DNA of 49,315 bases from an uncultured Alistipes sp. (GTDB lineage Bacteria > Bacteroidota > Bacteroidia > Bacteroidales > Rikenellaceae), in assembly GCA_944320985.1 (NCBI GenBank), contig CALUJN010000090.1, forward strand, positions 1 to 49,315, written 5' to 3'. Positions 23,654 through 39,846 of this stretch are shown one piece after another. The notes under the pieces were generated by a model. The model did not search any database. It was not told the origin of the DNA and saw only the letters and a list, made by a program, of their open reading frames with translations. The translations under genes and the position numbers were made by a program. How positions within the stretch are numbered: position 1 is the stretch's first letter; each line of letters starts with the position of its first letter.

Positions 23654-23660
23654 CTGTGTC

Positions 23661-23985
23661 GGTCCGATCCTCGTCGCAGTCAGCCTGCACCCTGCCGTCG
23701 GCGCGGGATTCTGCGACCGGTTCCGTTCCTTGCATCGGTCCGATCTACGTCGCAGTCAGCCTGCACCCTGCCGTTGGCCCGGTATTCTGCGACCGGTTCA
23801 GTTCCTTGCACCGGTCCGATCTACGTCGCAGTCAGTCTGCGCCCTGCTGTCGGCCCGGTATTCTGCGACCGATTCTGTTCCTTGTGTCGGTCCCATCCAC
23901 GTCGCAGTCAGCCTGCACCCTGCCGTCGGCGCGGGATTCTGCGATCGGTTCTGTTCCTTGTGTCGGTCCGATCCCCATCGGTTGG
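23661..23985. repeat. 76-bp tandem repeat, four full copies and a partial fifth
   Basis: Units begin at 23661, 23737, 23813 and 23889 with exact 76-base spacing, and a partial unit starts at 23965. Each unit starts GGTCCGATC (GGTCCCATC in copy 4), contains GTCGCAGTCAG and TCTGCGAC and ends in CCGTTCCTTG-like sequence. Because 76 is not a multiple of three, the same words fall in all three frames, so the repeat is not coding. GTCGCAG and CTGCGAC within each unit are complementary (perfect in three of four copies), so each unit can fold as a hairpin. The rest of 23576-24135 holds no gene; it includes the trx promoter. Confidence 0.9.
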
Positions 23986-25405: not shown

Positions 25406-26110
25406 CTATTCAAGAAAATGGTTCTGGTCGTTGTTCGTGGCAGCGAATTCCCGCAGCGACTTCAAATGCCGGCGCAGCATCGCGGCAGCTTCCTCCTCAT
25501 CCTGCTCCCGTACACAGCGCAACAACTCGCGGTGTTCGGCAAAAACCTCCTCGGAAGGAACCGTGCAAACCCGGTAACGCTGGTAATAACGCAAGACGTC
25601 GGGCGTGATCACAAGCAGCAGCGAGGCAATCACGGGATTGTGTGCCCCACGGGCCAGCGCCTGGTGGTATGCGAAATCCTTCGAGACGCGCTCGTCGGTA
25701 TAGAACTTCTCCTCACACTCCTTCAGAGCCTGCTCGATCGCCGCCAGATCCTCCTCCGTACGGTTGCGGGCACAGAGTTTCACCGCCTCCACCTCGAGTA
25801 ATTCCCGTACGTAGACCAACGACGCAAAATCGTATTGTTCGATCTGCAGGGCATCGGTAATCATTCGTTCCAGCACCTGCATCTTCTCCTGTGCCACGAC
25901 CGTACCGCTCTGCGGGAAGGTCTGCACTATGCCGTAAAACTCGAGTTTCTGCAACGCGGCCCGCACATGGGCACGACCTACTCCGAGCTGTTCGGCCAGA
26001 CGCCGCTCAGCCGGAAGGCGGCCTCCCGGCTGGAGACGTCCCGAATAGAGCTCCTCCTTGATGTATTTGAGGACCGTTTCAACCTGTTTGATATTGGGCG
26101 AATAGTTCAT
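25406..26110 (-). CDS. FadR/GntR family transcriptional regulator
   Basis: Regulator of 234 residues. The N-terminal GntR winged helix (about 8-75) shows the hallmark LPAERRLAEQLGVGRAHVRAALQKLEFYGIVQ. The C-terminal helical FCD effector domain (about 85-225) has a metal- or ligand-site pattern, with Asp145 and His149 in KDFAYHQALA and a further His near 192 (FAEHRELL). FCD regulators sense carboxylic acids and their derivatives. The gene is divergent from the iorAB operon across 346 bases, so it most likely controls that operon in response to an aryl- or oxo-acid; effector and sign are inferred. Confidence 0.9.
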   Translation of the reverse strand: MNYSPNIKQVETVLKYIKEELYSGRLQPGGRLPAERRLAEQLGVGRAHVRAALQKLEFYGIVQTFPQSGTVVAQEKMQVLERMITDALQIEQYDFASLVYVRELLEVEAVKLCARNRTEEDLAAIEQALKECEEKFYTDERVSKDFAYHQALARGAHNPVIASLLLVITPDVLRYYQRYRVCTVPSEEVFAEHRELLRCVREQDEEEAAAMLRRHLKSLREFAATNNDQNHFLE

Positions 26111-26163
26111 GCGCAGTCAAAATGGGAATTACGCTGCAAAGGTCGAAAAAAAACCAATCAAAC

Positions 26164-26171
26164 CAAAATTA
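26164..26171 (-). promoter_or_regulatory. -7 promoter element of the FadR-type gene
   Basis: Reverse strand TAATTTTG matches TAnnTTTG, 54 bases upstream of the regulator ATG. Confidence 0.5.
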
Positions 26172-26250
26172 TCCGCGCCTCATTTCTTGCAGAAACGCGA
26201 TAAATGGCGCATCGATACAAGAATCGTATCCGGAAGGTTTCAAGCCTCGC

Positions 26251-26269
26251 TGGAGAGGGGCTCTCTCCA
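26251..26269. repeat. Perfect hairpin in the fadR-iorA intergenic region
   Basis: TGGAGAG-GGGCT-CTCTCCA, 7 base pairs with a five-base loop. The 346-base gap (26111-26456) also holds the two promoters and an AT-rich stretch from about 26285 onward; no gene is seen in it. Confidence 0.45.
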
Positions 26270-26392
26270 CCCTGCGAAGAGGAAACATAAAAAATGCAGA
26301 GATTCTTCATTTTACATATTTGAACAAAATCGATCAATTTGAGAAATATTTTCACATATAAAGGCGACATGTATAATAATTTAATTTGAAAA

Positions 26393-26423
26393 CTTGCCTT
26401 TTTGCTGAAAATTTGTAACTTTG
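26393..26423 (+). promoter_or_regulatory. Promoter of the iorAB operon
   Basis: CTTG at 26393-26396 (one mismatch), 19 bases, TAACTTTG at 26416-26423 (full match to TAnnTTTG), 33 bases upstream of iorA. Preceded by an AT-rich region. Confidence 0.78.
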
Positions 26424-26456
26424 TAAAAAACCAGAAAAACCAACTGACCGCAAGTT

Positions 26457-28055
26457 ATGCCAAAACGAGAACTCTTACTCGGAGACGAAGCCCTCGCGCT
26501 GGGGGCCCTCCATGCGGGACTGTCGGGCGTCTTTGCCTATCCGGGCACGCCGTCCACCGAAATCACGGAATACATCCAAAGCCATCCGCTGGCTGCCGAA
26601 CGCAACATCCACCGCTCGTGGTCGTCGAACGAAAAGACGGCCATGGAAGAGGCCCTCGGCATGTCGTTCGTCGGCAAACGCGCCATGGTCTGCATGAAAC
26701 ACGTCGGACTGAACGTCGCCGCCGACGCCTTTGTCAACTCCGGCATGACCGGAGCCCACGGCGGGCTGGTCGTGGTCGTAGCCGACGACCCCTCGATGCA
26801 CTCGTCGCAAAACGAGCAGGACTCCCGCTTCTACGGAGAGTTCGCCTTCATCCCGACCTTCGAACCCGCGACACAGCAGGAGGCCTATGACATGGTACAG
26901 CACGCATTCGAATTGTCCGAGCGGTTTCAGATTCCCGTGCTGATGCGTTTGACGACCCGCATGGCCCACTCCCGGGCCGTGGTCGAGATCGGAGAGGCGC
27001 GGAAGGAGAATCCGCTGAGTTATCCGCAGTCGGCACGGCAATGGGTGCTCATGCCCGGCAATTCACGCGTACGCTACCGATCGCTCATCGAAGACCGTGC
27101 CCGTCTGGAGCAGGAGGCCGTCGAAAGTCCCTTCAACCGTTACGACGAAGGCCCGGACAAACGCCTGGGTATCATTGCCAGCGGCATTGCCTACAACTAT
27201 CTGATGGAAAACTACCCCGAAGGGTGTCCCTATCCGGTACTGAAAATCTCGCAATATCCACTGCCGAAGGAACTCGTACGCCACTTGGCCGAAACGTGCG
27301 GCGAGCTGCTCATCATCGAGGAGGGGCAGCCCTTCATCGAGCAGGCCGTGCGGGGCGTGCTGCCCGCACTGATGAAGATCCGCGGGCGGCTGACCGGCGA
27401 ACTCCCGCGCACCGGGGAGCTGACGCCCGACAGCGTCCGGACCGCCCTGGGGCTCGCGCCGCACCGGGCCCATGCGGCCAGTCAGATCGTCGTACCGCGT
27501 CCGCCCGCCCTGTGTCAGGGCTGCGGCCACCGGGACATGTACACGGCCCTGACCGAAGTCGTACGCGAATTCCCCGACGGCAAGGTCTTCAGCGACATCG
27601 GCTGCTACACGCTGGGATGGCTGGCCCCGTTCCACGCCATCGACACCTGCGTCGACATGGGCGCCTCGATCACCATGGCCATCGGAGCAGCCCATGCCGG
27701 GCAGCATCCGGCTCTGGCCGTCATCGGGGACTCGACCTTCACCCATTCGGGCATGACGGGACTGCTGGACGCCGTCAACGAGGGGGCCAACATCACGGTG
27801 GTGATCTCCGACAACCTCACAACGGGCATGACCGGCGGTCAGGATTCAGCCGGAACGGGACGTCTCGAGCAGATCTGCGCCGGCATCGGCGTCGATCCGG
27901 CCCACATCCGCGTTGTGGTGCCGCTGCCAAAAAACCGCGAAGAGATGAAACGCATTCTCCGCGAAGAGATCGCCTATCACGGAGTTTCGGTGATCATTCC
28001 GCGTCGCGAGTGCATCCAGACGGCCAAGCGTCACGCCGCCGCCAAAAACCGATAA
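26457..28055 (+). CDS. iorA: Indolepyruvate:ferredoxin oxidoreductase alpha subunit (no ferredoxin domain)
   Basis: Large subunit, 532 residues, of the thiamine-diphosphate enzyme that oxidatively decarboxylates aryl-pyruvates (indolepyruvate, phenylpyruvate, hydroxyphenylpyruvate) to aryl-acetyl-CoA and reduces ferredoxin. The N-terminal pyrimidine-binding domain shows GALHAGLSGVFAYPGTPSTEI and WSSNEKTAMEEALG. The C-terminal pyrophosphate domain (about 345-510) has CQGCGHRDMY, DIGCYTLG and the GDSTFTHSGMTG metal motif. Archaeal IorA proteins are over 600 residues and end in two [4Fe-4S] motifs; this one stops after PRRECIQTAKRH without them, so clusters must come from elsewhere. First gene of a four-gene operon. 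Confidence 0.92.
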   Translation: MPKRELLLGDEALALGALHAGLSGVFAYPGTPSTEITEYIQSHPLAAERNIHRSWSSNEKTAMEEALGMSFVGKRAMVCMKHVGLNVAADAFVNSGMTGAHGGLVVVVADDPSMHSSQNEQDSRFYGEFAFIPTFEPATQQEAYDMVQHAFELSERFQIPVLMRLTTRMAHSRAVVEIGEARKENPLSYPQSARQWVLMPGNSRVRYRSLIEDRARLEQEAVESPFNRYDEGPDKRLGIIASGIAYNYLMENYPEGCPYPVLKISQYPLPKELVRHLAETCGELLIIEEGQPFIEQAVRGVLPALMKIRGRLTGELPRTGELTPDSVRTALGLAPHRAHAASQIVVPRPPALCQGCGHRDMYTALTEVVREFPDGKVFSDIGCYTLGWLAPFHAIDTCVDMGASITMAIGAAHAGQHPALAVIGDSTFTHSGMTGLLDAVNEGANITVVISDNLTTGMTGGQDSAGTGRLEQICAGIGVDPAHIRVVVPLPKNREEMKRILREEIAYHGVSVIIPRRECIQTAKRHAAAKNR

Positions 28056-28068
28056 ATCCGCAAACGCC

Positions 28069-28656
28069 ATGAAAAAAGACATCATACTTTCGGGCGTGGG
28101 AGGACAGGGAATCCTCTCCATCGCCACGGTGATCGGCCGTGCGGCCCTGGCCGAGGGGCTGCAGATCAAACAGGCCGAAGTTCACGGCATGAGCCAGCGC
28201 GGCGGCGACGTACAGTCGCACCTGAGAATCTCCTCCTCGGAGATCCATTCAGACCTTATTCCGCGCGGTGCGGCCGATCTGATCATCTCGCTCGAGCCCA
28301 TGGAGTCGCTGCGCTATCTGGAGTGGCTATCGGCCGAAGGGTGGATCGTTACCAGCACCGTACCGGTGATCAACATCCCGAACTACCCCGACGAAGAGAC
28401 CCTCACGAAGGAGCTCGAAGCCCAGCCGCATGTCATCGCACTCGATGCCGACGCCCTGGCCCGCGAAGCCGCCTCGCCGCGTTCGGCCAACATGGCGTTG
28501 CTGGGGGCCGCAGCTCCGCTGCTGGACCTCGATGCCGGACTGCTTGAAGAGGGCATTCGGGCCATTTTCGCCCGAAAGGGAGAAGCCGTAGTCGAGGCCA
28601 ACCTCGCGGCCTTCCGCGCCGGGTATGAAACCGCCAAAAAACAGACCGCACGATGA
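28069..28656 (+). CDS. iorB: Indolepyruvate:ferredoxin oxidoreductase beta subunit
   Basis: Small subunit of 195 residues (gamma-type domain of 2-oxoacid oxidoreductases, probably helping bind coenzyme A). Recognisable by the glycine-rich start DIILSGVGGQGILSIATVIGRAA and the conserved QAEVHGMSQRGGDVQSHLRIS segment. It starts 13 bases after iorA and its stop overlaps the aminotransferase start (ATGA), so it is coupled to both neighbours. Together with IorA it forms the two-subunit enzyme. Confidence 0.93.
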   Translation: MKKDIILSGVGGQGILSIATVIGRAALAEGLQIKQAEVHGMSQRGGDVQSHLRISSSEIHSDLIPRGAADLIISLEPMESLRYLEWLSAEGWIVTSTVPVINIPNYPDEETLTKELEAQPHVIALDADALAREAASPRSANMALLGAAAPLLDLDAGLLEEGIRAIFARKGEAVVEANLAAFRAGYETAKKQTAR

Positions 28657-29966
28657 AAGTACCCTTCGACCGTTCGTATCTGGAATCTGCCCTGAAGCAG
28701 ATGGATATCGCGGACATCGCCCGGGCGACGATCCGCCAGTCGGGTGACATCGCCCGCATCATGGAGCGTTCGACGGGCCAGGAGTTCATCCACCTGGAGA
28801 TGGGCGTTCCGGGACTTCCGCCCCAAGAGGCCGGAGTCGAAGCCGAACGCCGGGCCCTGGCCGAAGGCGTCGCCTCGCAATACCCCAACATGTACGGCAT
28901 TCCGGAGTTGAAGACCCAGGCCGCACGCTTCATCAAGGCCTATCTCGACGTAGAGATCGACCCGCAGGGCTGTATCCCCACCGTGGGATCGATGCAAGGC
29001 AGCTTCACGACGTTCCTGATGTGTTCGCAACTGGATCCTGTCCGACGCAAGATCCTCTTCATCGACCCGGGCTTTCCCGTACAGCGGAGCCAGGTGCGCA
29101 TCCTCGGCATCCCGAACGATTCCTTCGACATCTACGACTACCGCGGCGAAAAATTAGGCCCGAAACTCGAAAGCTACCTCTCCAAGGGCGACGTGGCTGC
29201 CATCGTCTACTCGAACCCGAACAACCCCTCGTGGGTCTGCCTCACCGAAGAGGAGCTGCACACGATCGGAGAATTGGCCACCCGTTACGACGCCATCGTC
29301 ATCGAGGATCTGGCCTACCTCTGCATGGACTTCCGCAAACCCCTCGGACGCCCCTTCGAGGCTCCGTACCAAGCGACGGTGGCCCGCTACACGAAGAACT
29401 GGATCCTGCTGATCTCCGGTTCGAAGATCTTCAGCTATGCCGGGCAGCGGATCGCCGTGGCAGCCATCTCCGATGCGCTCTTCCGGCGCGAATACCCCGC
29501 TCTGCGCGAACGCTACGGCATCGGGCATCTGGGCGATGCCTACGTCCTGACGTTCCTCTATGCCGCCTCGTCGGGTACGAGCCACTCGGCACAGTACGCT
29601 CTGGCGGCGATGTTCCGCGCAGCGGCCGACGGAGCGCTCGATTTCGTGGGCGAAACCGCCGAATACGGCCGTCGGGCCCGACTGACGAAGGAGATCTTCC
29701 TGCGCCACGGCTTCCGCATCGTTTATGACAAGGACCGCAAAGAGCAGATCGGCGACGGATTCTTCTATACGATCGGTTACGGGACGATGACCAGCGCCGA
29801 GCTGCTCAGCGAGCTGTTGCTGTGCGGCGTCTGTGCCATCTCGCTCTCCTCGACCGGCAGCCGCCAGCACGGTATCCGCGTCTGCGTCTCGCAGATGAAC
29901 CGTCCCGAACAGTTCGAACTGCTTGACAACCGCCTCAGGGCCTTTGCCGAAAACCACCGCCCGTAA
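28653..29966 (+). CDS. PLP-dependent class I/II aminotransferase
   Basis: Fold-type I aminotransferase of 437 residues. The Schiff-base Lys is K258 in SGSKIFSYAGQRIAV. SNPNNPSWVCLTEEEL near 188 holds the Asn of the NPNNP motif, VIEDLAYLCMDF carries the Asp-Tyr pair of the cofactor site, and RVCVSQMN near the C-terminus holds the carboxylate-binding Arg. Translationally coupled to iorB. In this operon its obvious job is to convert an aromatic amino acid to the aryl-pyruvate used by IorAB; substrate preference is inferred from context, not from residues. Confidence 0.9.
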   Translation: MKVPFDRSYLESALKQMDIADIARATIRQSGDIARIMERSTGQEFIHLEMGVPGLPPQEAGVEAERRALAEGVASQYPNMYGIPELKTQAARFIKAYLDVEIDPQGCIPTVGSMQGSFTTFLMCSQLDPVRRKILFIDPGFPVQRSQVRILGIPNDSFDIYDYRGEKLGPKLESYLSKGDVAAIVYSNPNNPSWVCLTEEELHTIGELATRYDAIVIEDLAYLCMDFRKPLGRPFEAPYQATVARYTKNWILLISGSKIFSYAGQRIAVAAISDALFRREYPALRERYGIGHLGDAYVLTFLYAASSGTSHSAQYALAAMFRAAADGALDFVGETAEYGRRARLTKEIFLRHGFRIVYDKDRKEQIGDGFFYTIGYGTMTSAELLSELLLCGVCAISLSSTGSRQHGIRVCVSQMNRPEQFELLDNRLRAFAENHRP

Positions 29967-29980
29967 GAAAAACTTCTGCC

Positions 29981-31273
29981 ATGCGATACACGACAGCCGC
30001 GGAGGCGGTAAAACTCATCCATTCGAACCAAAGCGTCTACATTCAGGGAAGTACGTCGATCCCCGAGGTGCTCGTTGCCGCCCTGGCCGACCGCGGTCCG
30101 GAGCTCCGGGGCGTGAAGATCTATTCGGCCTTCGCCGTAGGGGCTCACGAGGCCCCCTACTGCCGGCCCGAATACCGCGAATCGTTTCTGGTGAACAGCC
30201 TCTTCGTGGCCAACAATATCCGCCGCTGGCTGGCCGACGGATACGGACAATCGATCCCGGCCTTCCTGGGTGAGATTCCGGGGCTCTTCCGCGACGGCAC
30301 CCTGCCGCTCGACGTGGCGCTCATCAACGTCTCACCGCCCGATGCCGAGGGCTACTGCTCGTTCGGCGTCTCGGCCGACCTGGCCGTCTCGGCCGTGGAG
30401 TGTGCCCGGGTGATCATTGCACAGGTCAACCGCGCCATGCCCTTCTCGTACGGCGACGCCGTCATCCACTCGTCGCGCTTCGCCGCGGCCGTGGAGGTCG
30501 ACTCGCCGCTGGTGGAGGTTCCGACAGCCGTGCCCACGGAGACCGAACTGCGCATCGGACGCGCCATCGCCGAGTTGATCCCCGACGGCGCCACGCTGCA
30601 GATCGGCGTCGGCGGCATCCCGAATGCCGTGCTGGGGGCGCTGAAGGACCACAAGCACCTCGGCCTGCATACCGAAGCGATGACCGACGGCGTGCTGCCG
30701 CTGCTCGAAAGCGGCGTAATCGACAATTCGCAGAAGGTCGTCCTGGCCGGCGTCTCGGTGGCCTCGCTGGCGCTGGGTTCGCGCCGGCTGTACGACTGCA
30801 GGGACTACCGCAAGGATCTGGTGATGAAGGATGTGGCCTGGACCAACGATCCGTTCCGCATCCGACAGAACCCGAAGGTCATGGCCATCAATTCGGCCGT
30901 GGAGGTCGATCTGACGGGACAGGTCTGCGCCGATTCGGTCGGCGTGCGCATCATCTCGGGGGTCGGCGGACAGCACGACTTCATGTACGGAGGAGCGCTC
31001 TCCGAAGGGGGCAAGACCTTCATCGCCATGCCGTCGATGACCCCCAAGGGTGAATCGAAAATCAAGGCCCTGCTGACCGCCGGAGCCGGCGTCGTCACTA
31101 CCCGCCACATGATCCAGCACGTCGTCACGGAGTACGGTGTGGCGCACCTGCGGGGCAAGAATCTCGCAGAGCGGGCCCGGGCTCTGATCTCGATCGCCCA
31201 TCCGTCGGTCCGTGAGGAGTTGGAACGCGCCGCGGCCGAACGCTACGGCTACTCGTTCCTCCACCTGCGATAA
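29981..31273 (+). CDS. Acetyl-CoA hydrolase/CoA-transferase family protein
   Basis: Family I CoA-transferase-type protein of 430 residues (acetyl-CoA hydrolase, succinyl-CoA:acetate or 4-hydroxybutyrate CoA-transferase group). Two Rossmann-like halves are visible. The CoA-binding GVGGIPNAVLG loop lies near residue 208, and the likely catalytic Glu that forms the enzyme-CoA thioester is E232 in HTEAMTDG. The C-terminal half has GVGGQHDFMYGA and the family end segment AVAHLRGK-like (GVAHLRGKNLAERA). It lies 14 bases after the aminotransferase and closes the operon. It would move CoA from an aryl-acetyl-CoA to acetate or another acid, releasing the aryl-acetate; this role is inferred. Confidence 0.88.
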   Translation: MRYTTAAEAVKLIHSNQSVYIQGSTSIPEVLVAALADRGPELRGVKIYSAFAVGAHEAPYCRPEYRESFLVNSLFVANNIRRWLADGYGQSIPAFLGEIPGLFRDGTLPLDVALINVSPPDAEGYCSFGVSADLAVSAVECARVIIAQVNRAMPFSYGDAVIHSSRFAAAVEVDSPLVEVPTAVPTETELRIGRAIAELIPDGATLQIGVGGIPNAVLGALKDHKHLGLHTEAMTDGVLPLLESGVIDNSQKVVLAGVSVASLALGSRRLYDCRDYRKDLVMKDVAWTNDPFRIRQNPKVMAINSAVEVDLTGQVCADSVGVRIISGVGGQHDFMYGGALSEGGKTFIAMPSMTPKGESKIKALLTAGAGVVTTRHMIQHVVTEYGVAHLRGKNLAERARALISIAHPSVREELERAAAERYGYSFLHLR

Positions 31274-31287: not shown

Positions 31288-31319
31288 CAGAAAAAAGCAG
31301 TCTGCCCGTCTGAAAAAAT

Positions 31320-31349
31320 CCGGTTCCGGAAAATGGAACCGGGTTTTTC
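31320..31349 (+). terminator. Terminator of the iorAB operon
   Basis: Hairpin CCGGTTCC / GGAACCGG (31320-31327 with 31335-31342) followed by GTTTTTCT, about 45 bases after the last stop codon. Confidence 0.85.
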
Positions 31350-32229: not shown

Positions 32230-33891
32230 ATGGAATGGCTCAAAGACCTGCTTCTCGAACCCTCGGCCCTGCAGGCCGTCGTGGTGATCTCACTGATCTC
32301 CGCAATCGGCATCGGTCTGGGTAAGATCCGCATCCTCGGAATCTCGCTCGGCACGGCCTTCATCTTCTTCGTGGGGATCCTGGCCGGGCACTTCGGCATC
32401 AAACTCGATCCGGCCATGCTGATCTATGCCGAAAGTTTCGGGTTGATCATCTTTGTATACGCCCTGGGACTGCAGGTCGGTCCGGGTTTCTTCAGCTCGA
32501 TGCGGGCCGACGGATTGCGCCTGCTCTCTCCGGCCGTGGGTCTGGTGATCGTCGGGACACTTTTGGCAGCCGGAATGAGCTACCTGCTGGGCATCGGAAT
32601 GACCGACATGTCAGGCATTCTGTGCGGCGCCACGACCAACACGCCGGCACTGGGAGCCGCCCAACAGGTGCTCAAGCAACTGGGACTCGATGACAGCGGC
32701 GCCGCACTGAGTTGTGCCGTAACCTATCCGCTGGGGGTCGTCGGAGTAATCCTGGCCATCGCCTTTCTGCGCAAACTCTTCGTACGGCCGTCGGATCTGC
32801 CGGGGCCCGATGCCGAACACCGCAAAAACGTCTTTATCGCCAGCTACCACATCACCAATCCGGCGCTCTTCGGCAAGAGCGTTCACGATATTGCCGTGCA
32901 GAGCCACCACCACTTCGTCATCTCGCGCCTCTGGCGCAACGGACAGGTCTCGATCCCCACGTCGGACAAAACCCTCCAGCAGAATGACGTAATTCTGGTC
33001 ATCACCACCCCCGGCGAGGCCGAAGCCCTGCGAATGATCTTCGGCGAGCAGGAGCAGAAGGACTGGAACAAGGAGAATATCGACTGGAACGCCGTCGACA
33101 GCCAGCTCATCTCGCAACGCATCCTCGTCACACGCCCCGAAATCAACGGGAAAAGGCTCTCGCAACTGCGCCTGCGCAACAACTACGGCATCAACATCAG
33201 CCGCGTCTACCGTTCGGGCGTACAGCTGCTCGCAACGCCCGATCTGCGGTTGCAACTGGGCGACCGGCTTACGGTCGTGGGCGAAGCCCAGGCCATCCGC
33301 AACGTGGAGAAGATCCTCGGTAATGCCGTAAAGAGTCTCAACGAACCCAACCTCGTTTCGGTATTCATCGGGTTGATCCTCGGACTGACACTCGGGAGCA
33401 TTCCCGTGGCCATTCCGGGTATCTCGATCCCCGTCAAACTGGGACTGGCCGGCGGTCCGATCATCGTCGGCATCCTGATCGGCACGTTCGGACCCCGGCT
33501 GCACATGATCACCTACACCACGCAGAGCGCCAATCTCATGCTGCGAGCCCTGGGCCTCTCGATGTATCTGGCCTGTCTGGGGCTCGATGCCGGCACGCAC
33601 TTCTTCGAGACGGTCATGCGCCCGGAGGGGGCACTGTGGCTCGGTGCGGGTTTTCTGCTGACGTTCGTTCCGGTGATTTTGGTCGGGCTCTTTGCCCTGC
33701 GGATTATGAAGGTCGATTTCGGATCTGTCGCGGGGCTGCTCTGCGGAAGCATGGCCAACCCCATGGCGCTGAACTACGCCAACGATACGATCGAAGGCGA
33801 CAATCCGTCGGTCTCCTACGCCACGGTATATCCCGTCTGCATGTTTCTGCGGGTGATCATCATTCAGGTGTTGCTGATGCTGACTCTTTAG
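32230..33891 (+). CDS. AspT/YidE-type putative transporter with RCK_C domains
   Basis: Inner-membrane protein of 553 residues. Layout is characteristic of the aspartate:alanine exchanger family: five N-terminal helices (about 10-185) with GATTNTPALGAAQQ, two soluble TrkA-C (RCK_C) domains (about 205-275 and 290-365), then a second membrane half (about 370-550) with GLAGGPIIVGILIGTFGP and GSMANPMALNYAND. The substrate is unknown; relatives include YidE/YbjL of Escherichia coli. Its 3' end overlaps the convergent mscS gene by 32 bases. Confidence 0.88.
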   Translation: MEWLKDLLLEPSALQAVVVISLISAIGIGLGKIRILGISLGTAFIFFVGILAGHFGIKLDPAMLIYAESFGLIIFVYALGLQVGPGFFSSMRADGLRLLSPAVGLVIVGTLLAAGMSYLLGIGMTDMSGILCGATTNTPALGAAQQVLKQLGLDDSGAALSCAVTYPLGVVGVILAIAFLRKLFVRPSDLPGPDAEHRKNVFIASYHITNPALFGKSVHDIAVQSHHHFVISRLWRNGQVSIPTSDKTLQQNDVILVITTPGEAEALRMIFGEQEQKDWNKENIDWNAVDSQLISQRILVTRPEINGKRLSQLRLRNNYGINISRVYRSGVQLLATPDLRLQLGDRLTVVGEAQAIRNVEKILGNAVKSLNEPNLVSVFIGLILGLTLGSIPVAIPGISIPVKLGLAGGPIIVGILIGTFGPRLHMITYTTQSANLMLRALGLSMYLACLGLDAGTHFFETVMRPEGALWLGAGFLLTFVPVILVGLFALRIMKVDFGSVAGLLCGSMANPMALNYANDTIEGDNPSVSYATVYPVCMFLRVIIIQVLLMLTL

Positions 33892-36979: not shown

Positions 36980-37368
36980 AAACTCAAAGACCTCTCCCGG
37001 CCGGGATTGCTCCGTGTCACACGGTCTCCGGTCTTTACAGCCCCGGCTCCAGATCCCAATTCCGGTCCCGGCTTTTGGCTTTCGATTCCTTGCTTCTGAC
37101 TCCCGACTGTTCGTTCTCGATTCCTTGCTTCCGGTTGCCGGTCCCGGTTACTGTCAGCGGTTAACGGCCATGTGGGCCCTTGCCTCCCTGCTTCCGGTTA
37201 TCGGTTCCTCGGCTGCTGTTCCTCGATTATTGGCTTTCCCGGTTACTGTCCCCCCCCCGATTGCTGGCTCCTCCGGTTTGCCGTCCCCGAGTTACTGGTC
37301 CCCCGGTTGCTGGTTCCTCCAGTTTGCCGTCCCCGAGTTACTGGTCCCTCCCGGTTACTGGCCCCCGG
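36980..37368. repeat. Pyrimidine-rich degenerate repeat region
   Basis: About 390 non-coding bases built from variants of words such as CGGTTACTGG, TTGCTGGTTCCTCC and CCGTCCCCGAGTTACTGG. The clearest unit is a 46-base tandem pair (37261-37306 and 37307-37352). A nine-C run lies at 37250-37258. Frames open across it carry no protein-like sequence. Confidence 0.75.
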
Positions 37369-39846
37369 TCAAAGTTCGGGCCCCGACTCACGCGGCTGCC
37401 CCACCTCGAATCCCAGAGAATGCATCCATTCCACGGTTGCGGGATCAACCAGATCGTTGCGATCGGTCCAACGACGCTCCTCGATATAACGGGCCTTACG
37501 CTGTTCCAGCGCCTGTTGCAGGGGGAATGTGGGATGCGGCAGCTGCGATTTCTCGCGTCGCTGCGACGGACGGATCGTCCGATCAAAGACATCCTGCTGC
37601 GTCGGACGACGAGCTCCCTCCCATTTGAACCCCTTCAGATAGAGATCCTGATCCGCCGGAATCTTCTCCAACGGGTAGATATTCCAGACCGGATCCTTGC
37701 GATAAACGATCGAAACGACCTGTTTGTCCTCGATAAAGAACGAACAGTCGCCGCTCTCGATCACGCCCATCCCGGTAATCACGGGCGGTTCACCGTCCTG
37801 CATGTAATAGATCGTCTGCGCATTGCCGTTCACGTCGTCGCGATAGATCTCGTTGTCGCGGAACCAGGCCGTCATCTGTTTTCCGGCCACCTGGTTGTAA
37901 TGCGTCGTATCGAGCTGGGCCACCATCATCGGACTGCCGACGAACTCCGCATGGGTGATCTGCTGGTTGGCCGTATAGATATCCATCACGTCGGAGGTGA
38001 TCTGATTCGACTGGTTCCAAAGCACGGGGTTGATATAGAGATGAATCGTCGAATCGGTGCTGATGGCCGTCATCGAGTCGCACACGGCCTGGAAATCCGA
38101 CCGGAACATCCGCACGTTCCGGAAGCCCTTCATCAGTCGGTAGATCGAATCCCGCGGCACCGAGAGCGAATCGACCGTATCTGCGACAATCAGACCCGCC
38201 AGCGAATCAGCCCTCGCCAACGAATCCGACAGAAGGCCCATCAGCGAATCCTGCTCCTGAATGTTGCGTTCGATCGCCGTCTGAAGCTCCTGCAGCGCTG
38301 CCAGATCCTCCGGATCAATCGGTCTCTGTTTGCCCTTCCGGGCCGCGCGGAGCTGGCGGGCCTTGAGTTTCGATTCGGCTTTCAGCCGCTGGGCCTTGAG
38401 TCGCTGCTCTTCGCGCTCCTTCTGCGCTTTGAGTTTGGCCGTAGCCTTCTCCTGCCGTTTGGCCGCGATCTGTGCCAGCAGCTCCTTCTTGGCTTTGGCC
38501 TTGGCGGCCTTCTCCTCGTCCCGGGCCTTGCGGGCCTGCTCCTTGAGGTACTCTTTGCGGGCCTTTCCAACCAGCGTATCCAACGGATTCACGGGCTGCG
38601 CCGCGAGCGAGTCTGTCCCGGCCGTCCGCAATGAATCGCTCCCTTCGGCAAGACCCGTCGTATCGCGCCGTTCCGTCATCCCGTCCCCACGCCGCGTCGG
38701 CGGGAGGGGTCGTCCGAGCGAATCCACCTGCGGAAGGCGTCGTCCCCGCAACGAATCGTCTCCGACAACCTCCGTCAACAACGAATCGGGACGAAGTCGG
38801 GCCAGGGAATCGGCCCGCAGCTGCGCCAGCGAATCGGCCAGAGCCGCAGCGGCTGCCGCTGCGGCCTTCCGCTGCTCCTCCTTTTCGTTGATCGTAAACA
38901 GGTACATCGAATCGGCCCGCATGAAGAGCGAATCTCCCTGCGACAGGTCATAACTCACCACCGCCGGACGCCGCGTCAGAAAGGCATTGCCCGGATCCTT
39001 CCAATACTCGCCGTAATCGCCAAATCCGATCGCCTTGTGTTCGGTATCGTCCAGCTGCAGGTCATGGCGCATGATCACGTGGTCTTTCACCCGGTAGTAA
39101 TCGATACTGTCACTCCAGATCTCCTGTTTCTCGGTCAGAATGTAGCCGTTGCGCGTGATGATGTAGAGCGTGTCGAGCTTTTCGTAGGAGCCCCGATCGG
39201 CATAAAGGTAGTCGCCGTCGCGGTTCCAGATATTCGTATGCTCAAAGAAATAGGCGTTGTCCGTGGCCATGTTGTAGACCACCGAGTCCCCCTTGAGTTC
39301 ATACTCGTCGTTGCGCATCTCGACCTGATCCACGGCTATCAGCTCCTTCGTATCGGCATAGTAGTATCCGCGAACCGCCTCGAGCAGGTTCTCGCGGTTG
39401 GTCAGCACGCCGCCGTCGGCAAATTCGCCCACATTGGTCTTCGTATTGAAGAGGAACTGATAGGTATAGAGCGTGGCGTCGCCGTCGACCACCTTCACGA
39501 TGTCCGAATAGACCCGGGCTTCATTCACATTGCCGTCGTATTCGGCACGGTCGCCATAGATGTAGGTCGTATTCTTGTTGATGAGCACGTTGCCGAAGAA
39601 CTCGATGCGCATGTCCGAATAACGCACCGCGGAGTCGCACGTGATGACGGCCCCGTTGTGCTGCGCGGCGAAGTTACCCACCAGAAAGACCACCGAATCG
39701 CCCGGAGCCACGGGTCCCATCAGATCCGACTTCAGATCGATGAGCTTCTTTTCACCTTCGGGCTGCTCGGGAGCCTGCATGCCGCTGCGCGCCGTCACGG
39801 CAACGACGGCCAACACCACGGCAGCTATGGATACGAGCTTGCGCAC
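37369..39846 (-). CDS. OstA-like (LptA/LptD N-terminal-like) protein with a basic Ala/Lys/Arg-rich insertion
   Basis: Protein of 825 residues with a signal peptide (about 1-20). Residues about 33-300 form an OstA/LptA-type beta-jellyroll with the repeating pattern seen in ITCDSAVRYSDMRIEFFGNV and TYIYGDRAEYDGNVNEARVY; a second OstA segment occupies about 570-770 (ISTDSTIHLYINPVLW). Between them (about 324-568) lies a low-complexity insertion with repeated DSL words and a Lys/Arg/Ala-rich coiled-coil-like stretch. OstA proteins handle lipopolysaccharide transport across the periplasm. GTG start at 39846 is forced: an in-frame TAG (the upstream gene's stop) is only two codons before. Coupled to the SurA-like gene. 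Confidence 0.82.
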   Translation of the reverse strand: MRKLVSIAAVVLAVVAVTARSGMQAPEQPEGEKKLIDLKSDLMGPVAPGDSVVFLVGNFAAQHNGAVITCDSAVRYSDMRIEFFGNVLINKNTTYIYGDRAEYDGNVNEARVYSDIVKVVDGDATLYTYQFLFNTKTNVGEFADGGVLTNRENLLEAVRGYYYADTKELIAVDQVEMRNDEYELKGDSVVYNMATDNAYFFEHTNIWNRDGDYLYADRGSYEKLDTLYIITRNGYILTEKQEIWSDSIDYYRVKDHVIMRHDLQLDDTEHKAIGFGDYGEYWKDPGNAFLTRRPAVVSYDLSQGDSLFMRADSMYLFTINEKEEQRKAAAAAAAALADSLAQLRADSLARLRPDSLLTEVVGDDSLRGRRLPQVDSLGRPLPPTRRGDGMTERRDTTGLAEGSDSLRTAGTDSLAAQPVNPLDTLVGKARKEYLKEQARKARDEEKAAKAKAKKELLAQIAAKRQEKATAKLKAQKEREEQRLKAQRLKAESKLKARQLRAARKGKQRPIDPEDLAALQELQTAIERNIQEQDSLMGLLSDSLARADSLAGLIVADTVDSLSVPRDSIYRLMKGFRNVRMFRSDFQAVCDSMTAISTDSTIHLYINPVLWNQSNQITSDVMDIYTANQQITHAEFVGSPMMVAQLDTTHYNQVAGKQMTAWFRDNEIYRDDVNGNAQTIYYMQDGEPPVITGMGVIESGDCSFFIEDKQVVSIVYRKDPVWNIYPLEKIPADQDLYLKGFKWEGARRPTQQDVFDRTIRPSQRREKSQLPHPTFPLQQALEQRKARYIEERRWTDRNDLVDPATVEWMHSLGFEVGQPRESGPEL

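Follow-up and report, generated by a model that had tools for sequence, protein, structure and literature searches.

A CoA-transferase version of the Bacteroidales indolepyruvate oxidoreductase operon in Alistipes, with a possible role in aromatic amino acid fermentation

Several described systems link 2-oxoacid:ferredoxin oxidoreductases (OFORs) to aryl-acetates. In Bacteroides thetaiotaomicron, deletion of BT0430 lowers 4-hydroxyphenylacetate output without abolishing it, and complementation brings it back almost to the wild-type level; BT0430 is one of three OFORs tested, and double and triple mutants still give residual output (PMC10746243). We take BT0430-0429 to be the Bacteroides indolepyruvate oxidoreductase (IOR) that PMC13285125 places next to an AMP-forming arylacetate-CoA ligase. 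Peptide fermentation in Pyrococcus ends in ADP-forming synthetases, of which ACS2 accepts phenylacetyl-CoA and indoleacetyl-CoA (PMC3942289), and clostridial IOR and VOR genes lie near phosphotransacylase-kinase pairs or ADP-forming ligases (PMC13285125). The direction of the Bacteroidales IOR, breakdown or building of aromatic amino acids, is not settled in print, with PMC13285125 on one side and the B. thetaiotaomicron mutant of PMC10746243 on the other. The possible products matter to the host, where phenylacetate and 4-hydroxyphenylacetate feed phenylacetylglutamine and p-cresol sulfate (PMC12176623, PMC10746243). Here we analyze an IOR-type operon in a stretch of 49,315 nucleotides (the window) from an uncultured Alistipes sp., which is one contig (C90) of a draft genome of 2.66 Mb that is 87% complete. 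In this operon, genes for a two-subunit IOR are followed by genes for an aminotransferase and a class I CoA-transferase.

With somewhat better than even confidence, we favor a role in which the operon serves to ferment aromatic amino acids oxidatively, Phe and Tyr above all. It is a Bacteroidales IOR operon in which a CoA-transferase takes the last place, elsewhere occupied by an AMP-forming ligase or, rarely, by an ADP-forming synthetase, and this exchangeable last enzyme is the new element here. A wider proposal, to which we give a little less than even weight, is that Bacteroidales IOR-aminotransferase operons end in an exchangeable exit slot, that its three unrelated enzymes determine how much energy IOR yields and perhaps in which direction it runs, that the CoA-transferase is a class I aryl-acetyl-CoA:acetate CoA-transferase, and that its carriers have largely given up Phe and Tyr synthesis and depend on the gut for these amino acids. 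Literature searches found no description of the operon among the titles and abstract starts listed (several listings covering, for example, 20 of 150 or 20 of 124 records), a coverage that mostly leaves out subscription journals.

A conserved operon with an exchangeable last gene

The operon and its divergent neighbor comprise the following features.

25406..26110, minus strand: GntR-family regulator with FCD domain, 234 aa (Pfam GntR 63.3 bits, FCD 88.1 bits, both above the cut-off; nearest solved relative 2di3, GntR family)
26111..26456, no strand: intergenic region, presumably with promoters both ways (aligned with four GntR-bearing Alistipes loci)
26394..26423, plus strand: likely iorA promoter, TTG at 26394 and TAACTTTG at 26416-26423 (pattern match to the Bacteroidota consensus)
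26457..28055, plus strand: iorA-like alpha subunit, thiamine pyrophosphate (TPP) enzyme, 532 aa (POR_N and TPP_enzyme_C; TIGR03336 536.6 bits)
28069..28656, plus strand: iorB, beta subunit, 195 aa (NF005324 307 bits, cut-off 222; PF01558, POR)
28653..29966, plus strand: class I/II pyridoxal phosphate (PLP) aminotransferase, 437 aa (PF00155, Aminotran_1_2; nearest solved structure 3g0t)
29981..31273, plus strand: class I CoA-transferase resembling 4-hydroxybutyrate CoA-transferases, 430 aa (PF02550 and PF13336, AcetylCoA_hydro and AcetylCoA_hyd_C; 9vag, 2oas, 3gk7)
31314..31348, plus strand: terminator-like hairpin 3' of the operon (pattern scan)

All five reading frames are intact where they were first annotated, and the Pfam domains of all five proteins exceed their cut-offs; in the regulator both domains do so, which places it in the GntR/FCD subfamily. 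The spacings along the operon are 13 nt, -4 nt (an overlap) and 14 nt. Terminator-like hairpins are not enriched in the region, with 7 found and 6.9 expected from shuffles. A role in defense was rejected, as none of the five proteins had a PADLOC match.

We collected 166 distinct Bacteroidales IorA loci, a non-random set picked by matches to the window proteins. The order IorA-IorB-aminotransferase-CoA-transferase occurs in 64 of them (4 with little room), IorA-IorB-aminotransferase-PaaK in 24 (1 with little room), and IorA-IorB-aminotransferase followed by an ADP-forming synthetase (ACD) in 3 (1 with little room). One locus has a shikimate kinase gene after IorA-IorB-aminotransferase, and one reads IorA-IorB-PaaK; IorA-IorB stand by themselves in 69 (16 with little room) and IorA in 4. 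That the window's four-gene order recurs in 64 of the 166 loci shows that chance does not explain it. An earlier note on this DNA had described a four-gene operon with a divergent FCD-type regulator, and both gene content and order bear it out.

Of a second set of 80 named loci, picked through the CoA-transferase as the best of 502 candidates, 53 also contain IorA and/or IorB (51 contain IorA). Within this set the nearest named relatives of the window CoA-transferase are from Alistipes (uncultured metagenome-assembled genomes (MAGs), sp. An66, Candidatus Alistipes intestinigallinarum, A. montrealensis and A. muris), on which ground we take the window to be Alistipes-type. By record titles, which can err for MAGs, CoA-transferase loci span Rikenellaceae, Bacteroidaceae, Muribaculaceae, Barnesiellaceae, Porphyromonadaceae and Prevotellaceae. 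When 99 genomes were drawn evenly across the order, each with another family code, IorA was matched at an E value of 1e-60 or better in 80; two of these 80, G029 and G037, have only a 33% identical form of ~600 aa. The operon-type CoA-transferase (at least 70% identical) was present in 2 of the 99. Among 61 standalone iorAB loci, no downstream ORF apart from iorB recurs in more than 6. Just 5' of iorA in 14 of these 61, on the same strand, lies a 136-aa ORF (for example in L259), in other families of the order.

Replacement of the last gene was examined in 150 family genomes, counting as operon-type a CoA-transferase of at least 67% identity and as PaaK a PF14535 match at 1e-10 or better. G141, whose CoA-transferase is 57% identical and which has no PaaK match, was left out of the carrier count. 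The CoA-transferase was found in 34 genomes and PaaK in 42, and no genome has both, against 9.5 expected if the two were independent. Of the 67 IorA-bearing genomes, 23 have the CoA-transferase, 38 have PaaK and 6 have neither. Three of these six carry ACD (G180, G195, G224) and one a shikimate kinase gene (G145); G183 is cut at the aminotransferase start by the contig end, and in G103 ~2 kb 3' of iorB without an aminotransferase match precede the contig end. The shikimate kinase gene of G145 (L116:7456-7995) occupies the place of the slot enzyme. The window's own genome has a weak PF14535 match (L227, G000:C54:7451-7735) of 30.8 bits, far under the PaaK matches of its relatives.

The replacing enzymes belong to separate families. 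The one PaaK protein scanned has PF14535 and PF00501 domains. Both ACD proteins scanned combine CoA_binding_2, Succ_CoA_lig and ATP-grasp_5 domains, and among solved structures the best named matches to one of them are ADP-forming CoA ligases. An IorA tree was built from 97 of the 166 rows, namely 61 of 64 with CoA-transferase, 25 of 25 with PaaK, 3 of 3 with ACD and 8 hand-chosen rows lacking a slot enzyme. The ACD operons nest inside the CoA-transferase group, in a set of 3 ACD and 1 CoA-transferase with support 97 (its ACD row L120 is partial, with 35% of columns), so ACD and CoA-transferase appear interchangeable. Since three unrelated enzymes share one slot, and PaaK and CoA-transferase exclude each other, the common job of the slot is probably the step between aryl-acetyl-CoA and the acid. 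A CoA-transferase conserves the thioester energy in a new acyl-CoA, and two of the three occupants, CoA-transferase and ACD, would suit the acid-forming, energy-saving direction.

In the favored pathway, the aminotransferase would convert an aromatic amino acid to the aryl-pyruvate, and IorAB would decarboxylate it oxidatively to aryl-acetyl-CoA, passing electrons to ferredoxin via a single proximal [4Fe-4S] cluster. The CoA-transferase would then hand the CoA of aryl-acetyl-CoA on to acetate or a comparable acid via an enzyme-glutamyl thioester on Glu232. This transfer would free the aryl-acetate and yield acetyl-CoA, which can give ATP. The operon holds together an aminotransferase, an IOR and an enzyme for the acyl-CoA-to-acid step, the gene set of oxidative (Stickland-type) aromatic fermentation. 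The earlier note had drawn the same chain from gene identities, and the three unrelated enzymes of the last slot strengthen it. Right in outline, that reading is weaker on regulation and on one product, and the direction that it assumed is a point on which we too can only infer.

The products that we favor are phenylacetate from Phe and 4-hydroxyphenylacetate from Tyr. Indoleacetate, also offered in the earlier note, is unlikely because no quantifiable amounts came from 66 Bacteroidota strains in one published screen, which also notes that low production has been reported for some Bacteroides (PMC13290082). The word "Alistipes" is absent from the main text of that paper.

The oxidoreductase, the aminotransferase and the CoA-transferase

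IorB scores 307 bits with NF005324, the model for indolepyruvate oxidoreductase subunit beta, above its curated cut-off of 222. IorA falls under that of TIGR03336, with 536.6 against 650.9 bits, and matches model positions 2-541 of 595, the last 54 being missing. The domains are those of an IOR, with POR_N and TPP-binding domains in the alpha subunit and a POR gamma domain in the beta subunit. In an alignment with IorA-like proteins of 601-630 aa from four order genomes, the window IorA lacks their cysteine-rich C-terminal stretch, a ferredoxin domain with two [4Fe-4S] clusters.

This shorter form is general in the set. Counting the 162 of 166 rows that were read to their stop, with rows below 450 aa dropped, all 162 Bacteroidales-type IorA proteins, the window's included, lack the stretch; they measure 523-553 aa and have 1-3 cysteines in their last 75 residues. 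Four cysteines of the window protein, C353, C356, C383 and C519, are present in every one of the 162; its remaining five vary. By likeness to known OFORs, we take the four invariant residues to be ligands of the TPP-proximal cluster, a likely assignment. With the C-terminal stretch missing and these cysteines invariant, IorA probably carries a single proximal cluster and would pass electrons straight to ferredoxin.

The aminotransferase aligns with 3g0t at an E value of 3e-136 across residues 1-430, and its Lys258, presumably the PLP lysine, sits in an SGSK motif. The CoA-transferase has PF02550 and PF13336 over their cut-offs together with the glutamate motif of class I enzymes: Glu232, which we assume to be the catalytic glutamate, lies in HTEAMTDG and aligns with the HSE of 3gk7, and HTEAMTDG or HTEALTDG is present in 115 of 115 CoA-transferase rows (some loci being counted twice, from two records). 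Its nearest solved structures (9vag, 2oas, 3gk7) bear the name 4-hydroxybutyrate CoA-transferase. To our knowledge, aryl-acetyl-CoA:acetate CoA-transferase activity has not been described for the class I family. The aminotransferase gene lies directly 5' of the CoA-transferase gene in 79 of the 80 named loci, and the 80th, L139, ends at the contig end. We infer aryl specificity for both enzymes.

Substrate range, direction and aromatic amino acid supply

Several observations weigh against fermentation of aromatic amino acids as the dedicated role of the operon. The IorA tree requires only 3 changes of slot enzyme, which means that the co-occurrence and slot counts rest on few independent events, and the node joining the CoA-transferase operons (with the 3 ACD operons and 1 lacking a slot enzyme) has a support of only 81. 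In one cohort, Alistipes correlated negatively with plasma phenylacetylglutamine and cresol conjugates (PMC10721883), and the available portion of a report on a second cohort names no Alistipes-phenylacetylglutamine link (PMC9871785). Aminotransferase-CoA-transferase pairs occur without iorAB in 26 of the 80 named loci, and in 19 of these the upstream sequence extends for 3.3 kb or more; the two enzymes therefore need not be aryl-specific. The aminotransferase family also lies 5' of ferredoxin-like and ~362-aa oxidoreductase ORFs, which we take to be VOR-like, in 10 of 29 order-level loci. Genomes with iorAB-less pairs hold other PF01855 oxidoreductases, mostly in frames of ~1,030-1,230, 610-650 and 360-390 aa. 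The aminotransferase and the CoA-transferase may serve further 2-oxoacids. Lastly, the loss of prephenate dehydratase among carriers, described below, fits the rebuilding of Phe from phenylacetate as well.

The search behind the PF01855 result covered whole genomes under 28 handles, of which G178 and G264 are one genome with identical matches. It returned no full-length IorA-like match in genomes with iorAB-less pairs, several of which are incomplete, so that absence is not certain; two operon-bearing controls gave frames of 562 and 573 aa. Short matches in G194, G248 and G260 fit no assignment. A conserved enzyme was sought upstream of the iorAB-less pairs at 20 loci; the recurrent ORFs (in at most 9 loci), judged by eye and unscanned, did not resemble oxidoreductases. 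Many of the pairs (part of L153-L181, and L212) are by title in ruminant-gut Bacteroidales MAGs.

The iorAB-less pairs, the oxidoreductases kept in their genomes and the presumed VOR-like neighbors would all be expected if the aminotransferase and CoA-transferase served several 2-oxoacid oxidoreductases, with branched-chain acids as the main products, and the 4-hydroxybutyrate name of the nearest CoA-transferase structures agrees with such breadth. We nevertheless consider this quite improbable for the window. Its oxidoreductase is of the IOR kind, with an IorB over the curated indolepyruvate oxidoreductase cut-off, the alternative slot enzyme is a PaaK-type ligase, and the IOR-linked ligase of Bacteroides was assayed as an arylacetate-CoA ligase (PMC13285125).

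The supply of aromatic amino acids bears on direction. Chorismate synthase is present in 147 of the 150 family genomes. Prephenate dehydratase, in contrast, is found in 11 of the 34 genomes with the CoA-transferase and in 89 of the other 116; a hand count on rounded completeness, limited to genomes at least 90% complete, gives 8 of 25 and 56 of 74. Among IorA-bearing genomes it occurs in 8 of 23 with the CoA-transferase and in 33 of 38 with PaaK. The corresponding figures for prephenate dehydrogenase, counted from the 98 genomes over the cut-off among 100 reported, are 7 of 23 and 33 of 38. The family genomes are related, so these counts are not independent. Prephenate dehydratase shows no link with IorA alone (43 of 67 genomes with IorA, 57 of 83 without). 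No prephenate dehydrogenase was found in the window's 87% complete draft genome. Because CoA-transferase genomes mostly lack prephenate dehydratase while chorismate synthase is kept, we read most carriers as taking up aromatic amino acids.

The same pattern fits an anabolic use of the operon, in which the CoA-transferase would activate gut aryl-acetates with CoA from acetyl-CoA or succinyl-CoA, IorAB would carboxylate the products reductively to aryl-pyruvates, and transamination would give Phe and Tyr, making up for the lost prephenate branch. Most CoA-transferase genomes lack both prephenate enzymes and keep chorismate synthase, as this would predict; CoA-transferases are reversible, and the direction has been proposed for the Bacteroides IOR on account of its AMP-forming ligase (PMC13285125, 2026). 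However, IorA is no commoner where prephenate dehydratase is missing (24 of 50 genomes without the dehydratase, 43 of 100 with it; Fisher p 0.6), and the window genome itself has the dehydratase. Furthermore, 8 of the 11 CoA-transferase genomes without IorA also lack the dehydratase, an argument weakened by the small number among these 11 that reach 90% completeness, namely 4, of which 2 lack it. The ATP-forming ACD in the same slot of three relatives also speaks for acid formation. On balance we judge the anabolic use unlikely, though it deserves weight, and retain oxidative fermentation as the favored role.

One relative argues against the operon aminotransferase being the usual Phe/Tyr biosynthetic enzyme: the presumed aminotransferase-like ORF of G130, next to a presumed prephenate dehydratase gene, matches the operon enzyme over 235 residues only, at 24%.

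Control, surroundings and comparison with described systems

The pair TTG and TAnnTTTG is what we take to be the Bacteroidota promoter consensus. Across 87 of the 92 loci with a slot enzyme, TTG-N18-22-TAnnTTTG precedes 31 operons, against 0.4 expected from mononucleotide shuffles, and TAnnTTTG alone precedes 56, against 4.8. In the window the likely promoter lies ~33 nt 5' of iorA. With so little room, and no Rfam family match in a scan of the window, a riboswitch or structured leader is unlikely.

The earlier note called the operon regulated. The divergent GntR-FCD gene is real, but regulation by it characterizes the operon only weakly: of the 53 CoA-transferase operons that have over 900 nt of upstream sequence, the gene adjoins 5 (those of the window, L135, L137, L145 and L152, the last with a C-terminal remnant), all of Alistipes type, and a further one, at L138, is cut by the contig end. 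No conserved operator palindrome was found in five intergenic regions, those of the window and four GntR-bearing Alistipes loci. The window, L135, L137 and L138 share a well-conserved block of ~35 nt 5' of the regulator gene; this block would most simply be the regulator's own promoter. That the GntR protein controls the operon is a guess.

Two genes 3' of the operon, at 32230-33891, lies a gene for an AspT/YidE-type transporter (NF003007, TIGR01625). Such a gene adjoins the operon in close Alistipes relatives and is several kb off in others. A transporter exchanging precursor and product, here amino acid and acid, would be a natural partner of the operon, but the linkage is weak. Elsewhere in the window, a 76-bp unit is repeated in tandem at 23659-23974 (4.2 copies, 89% matches), between what we assume to be an outer-membrane-efflux-type gene and a thioredoxin-like gene, and C-rich short tandem repeats with units of 15-46 bp lie at 37253-37369.

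Relatives that differ in the last gene, be it ligase, CoA-transferase or ADP-forming synthetase, offer a natural comparison for the question of IOR direction. From it one could tell which gut genomes ought to produce aryl-acetates while saving energy.

Of the described systems, BT0430-0429 of B. thetaiotaomicron (PMC10746243), as we identify it, is likewise a two-subunit Bacteroidales IOR tied to an aryl-acetyl-CoA/aryl-acetate enzyme. In gene content the window differs in having a class I CoA-transferase in place of the ligase and the aminotransferase within the operon. IOR and ACS2 of Pyrococcus furiosus run from aryl-pyruvate through aryl-acetyl-CoA to aryl-acetate with reduced ferredoxin (PMC3942289), as the window operon probably does, and three of its relatives carry an ADP-forming synthetase; the window itself has a CoA-transferase instead of the ATP-forming synthetase, and its IorA is without the C-terminal domain. 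The tyrosine pathway HpdDEFG-HpdJ-HpdK of Clostridium scatologenes shares the oxidative branch of aromatic fermentation, with energy saved after the acyl-CoA, but employs a four-subunit VOR-like oxidoreductase with a phosphotransacylase and a kinase where the window has IOR and a CoA-transferase; the term "CoA transferase" is absent from the main text of the paper that describes it (PMC13285125). Finally, the window CoA-transferase belongs to the same sequence family, with its glutamate motif, as the 4-hydroxybutyrate CoA-transferases (9vag, 2oas, 3gk7) and butyryl-CoA:acetate CoA-transferase (TIGR03948). It differs in scoring far under the TIGR03948 cut-off (271 against 674.8 bits) and in adjoining an aminotransferase in 79 of the 80 named loci.

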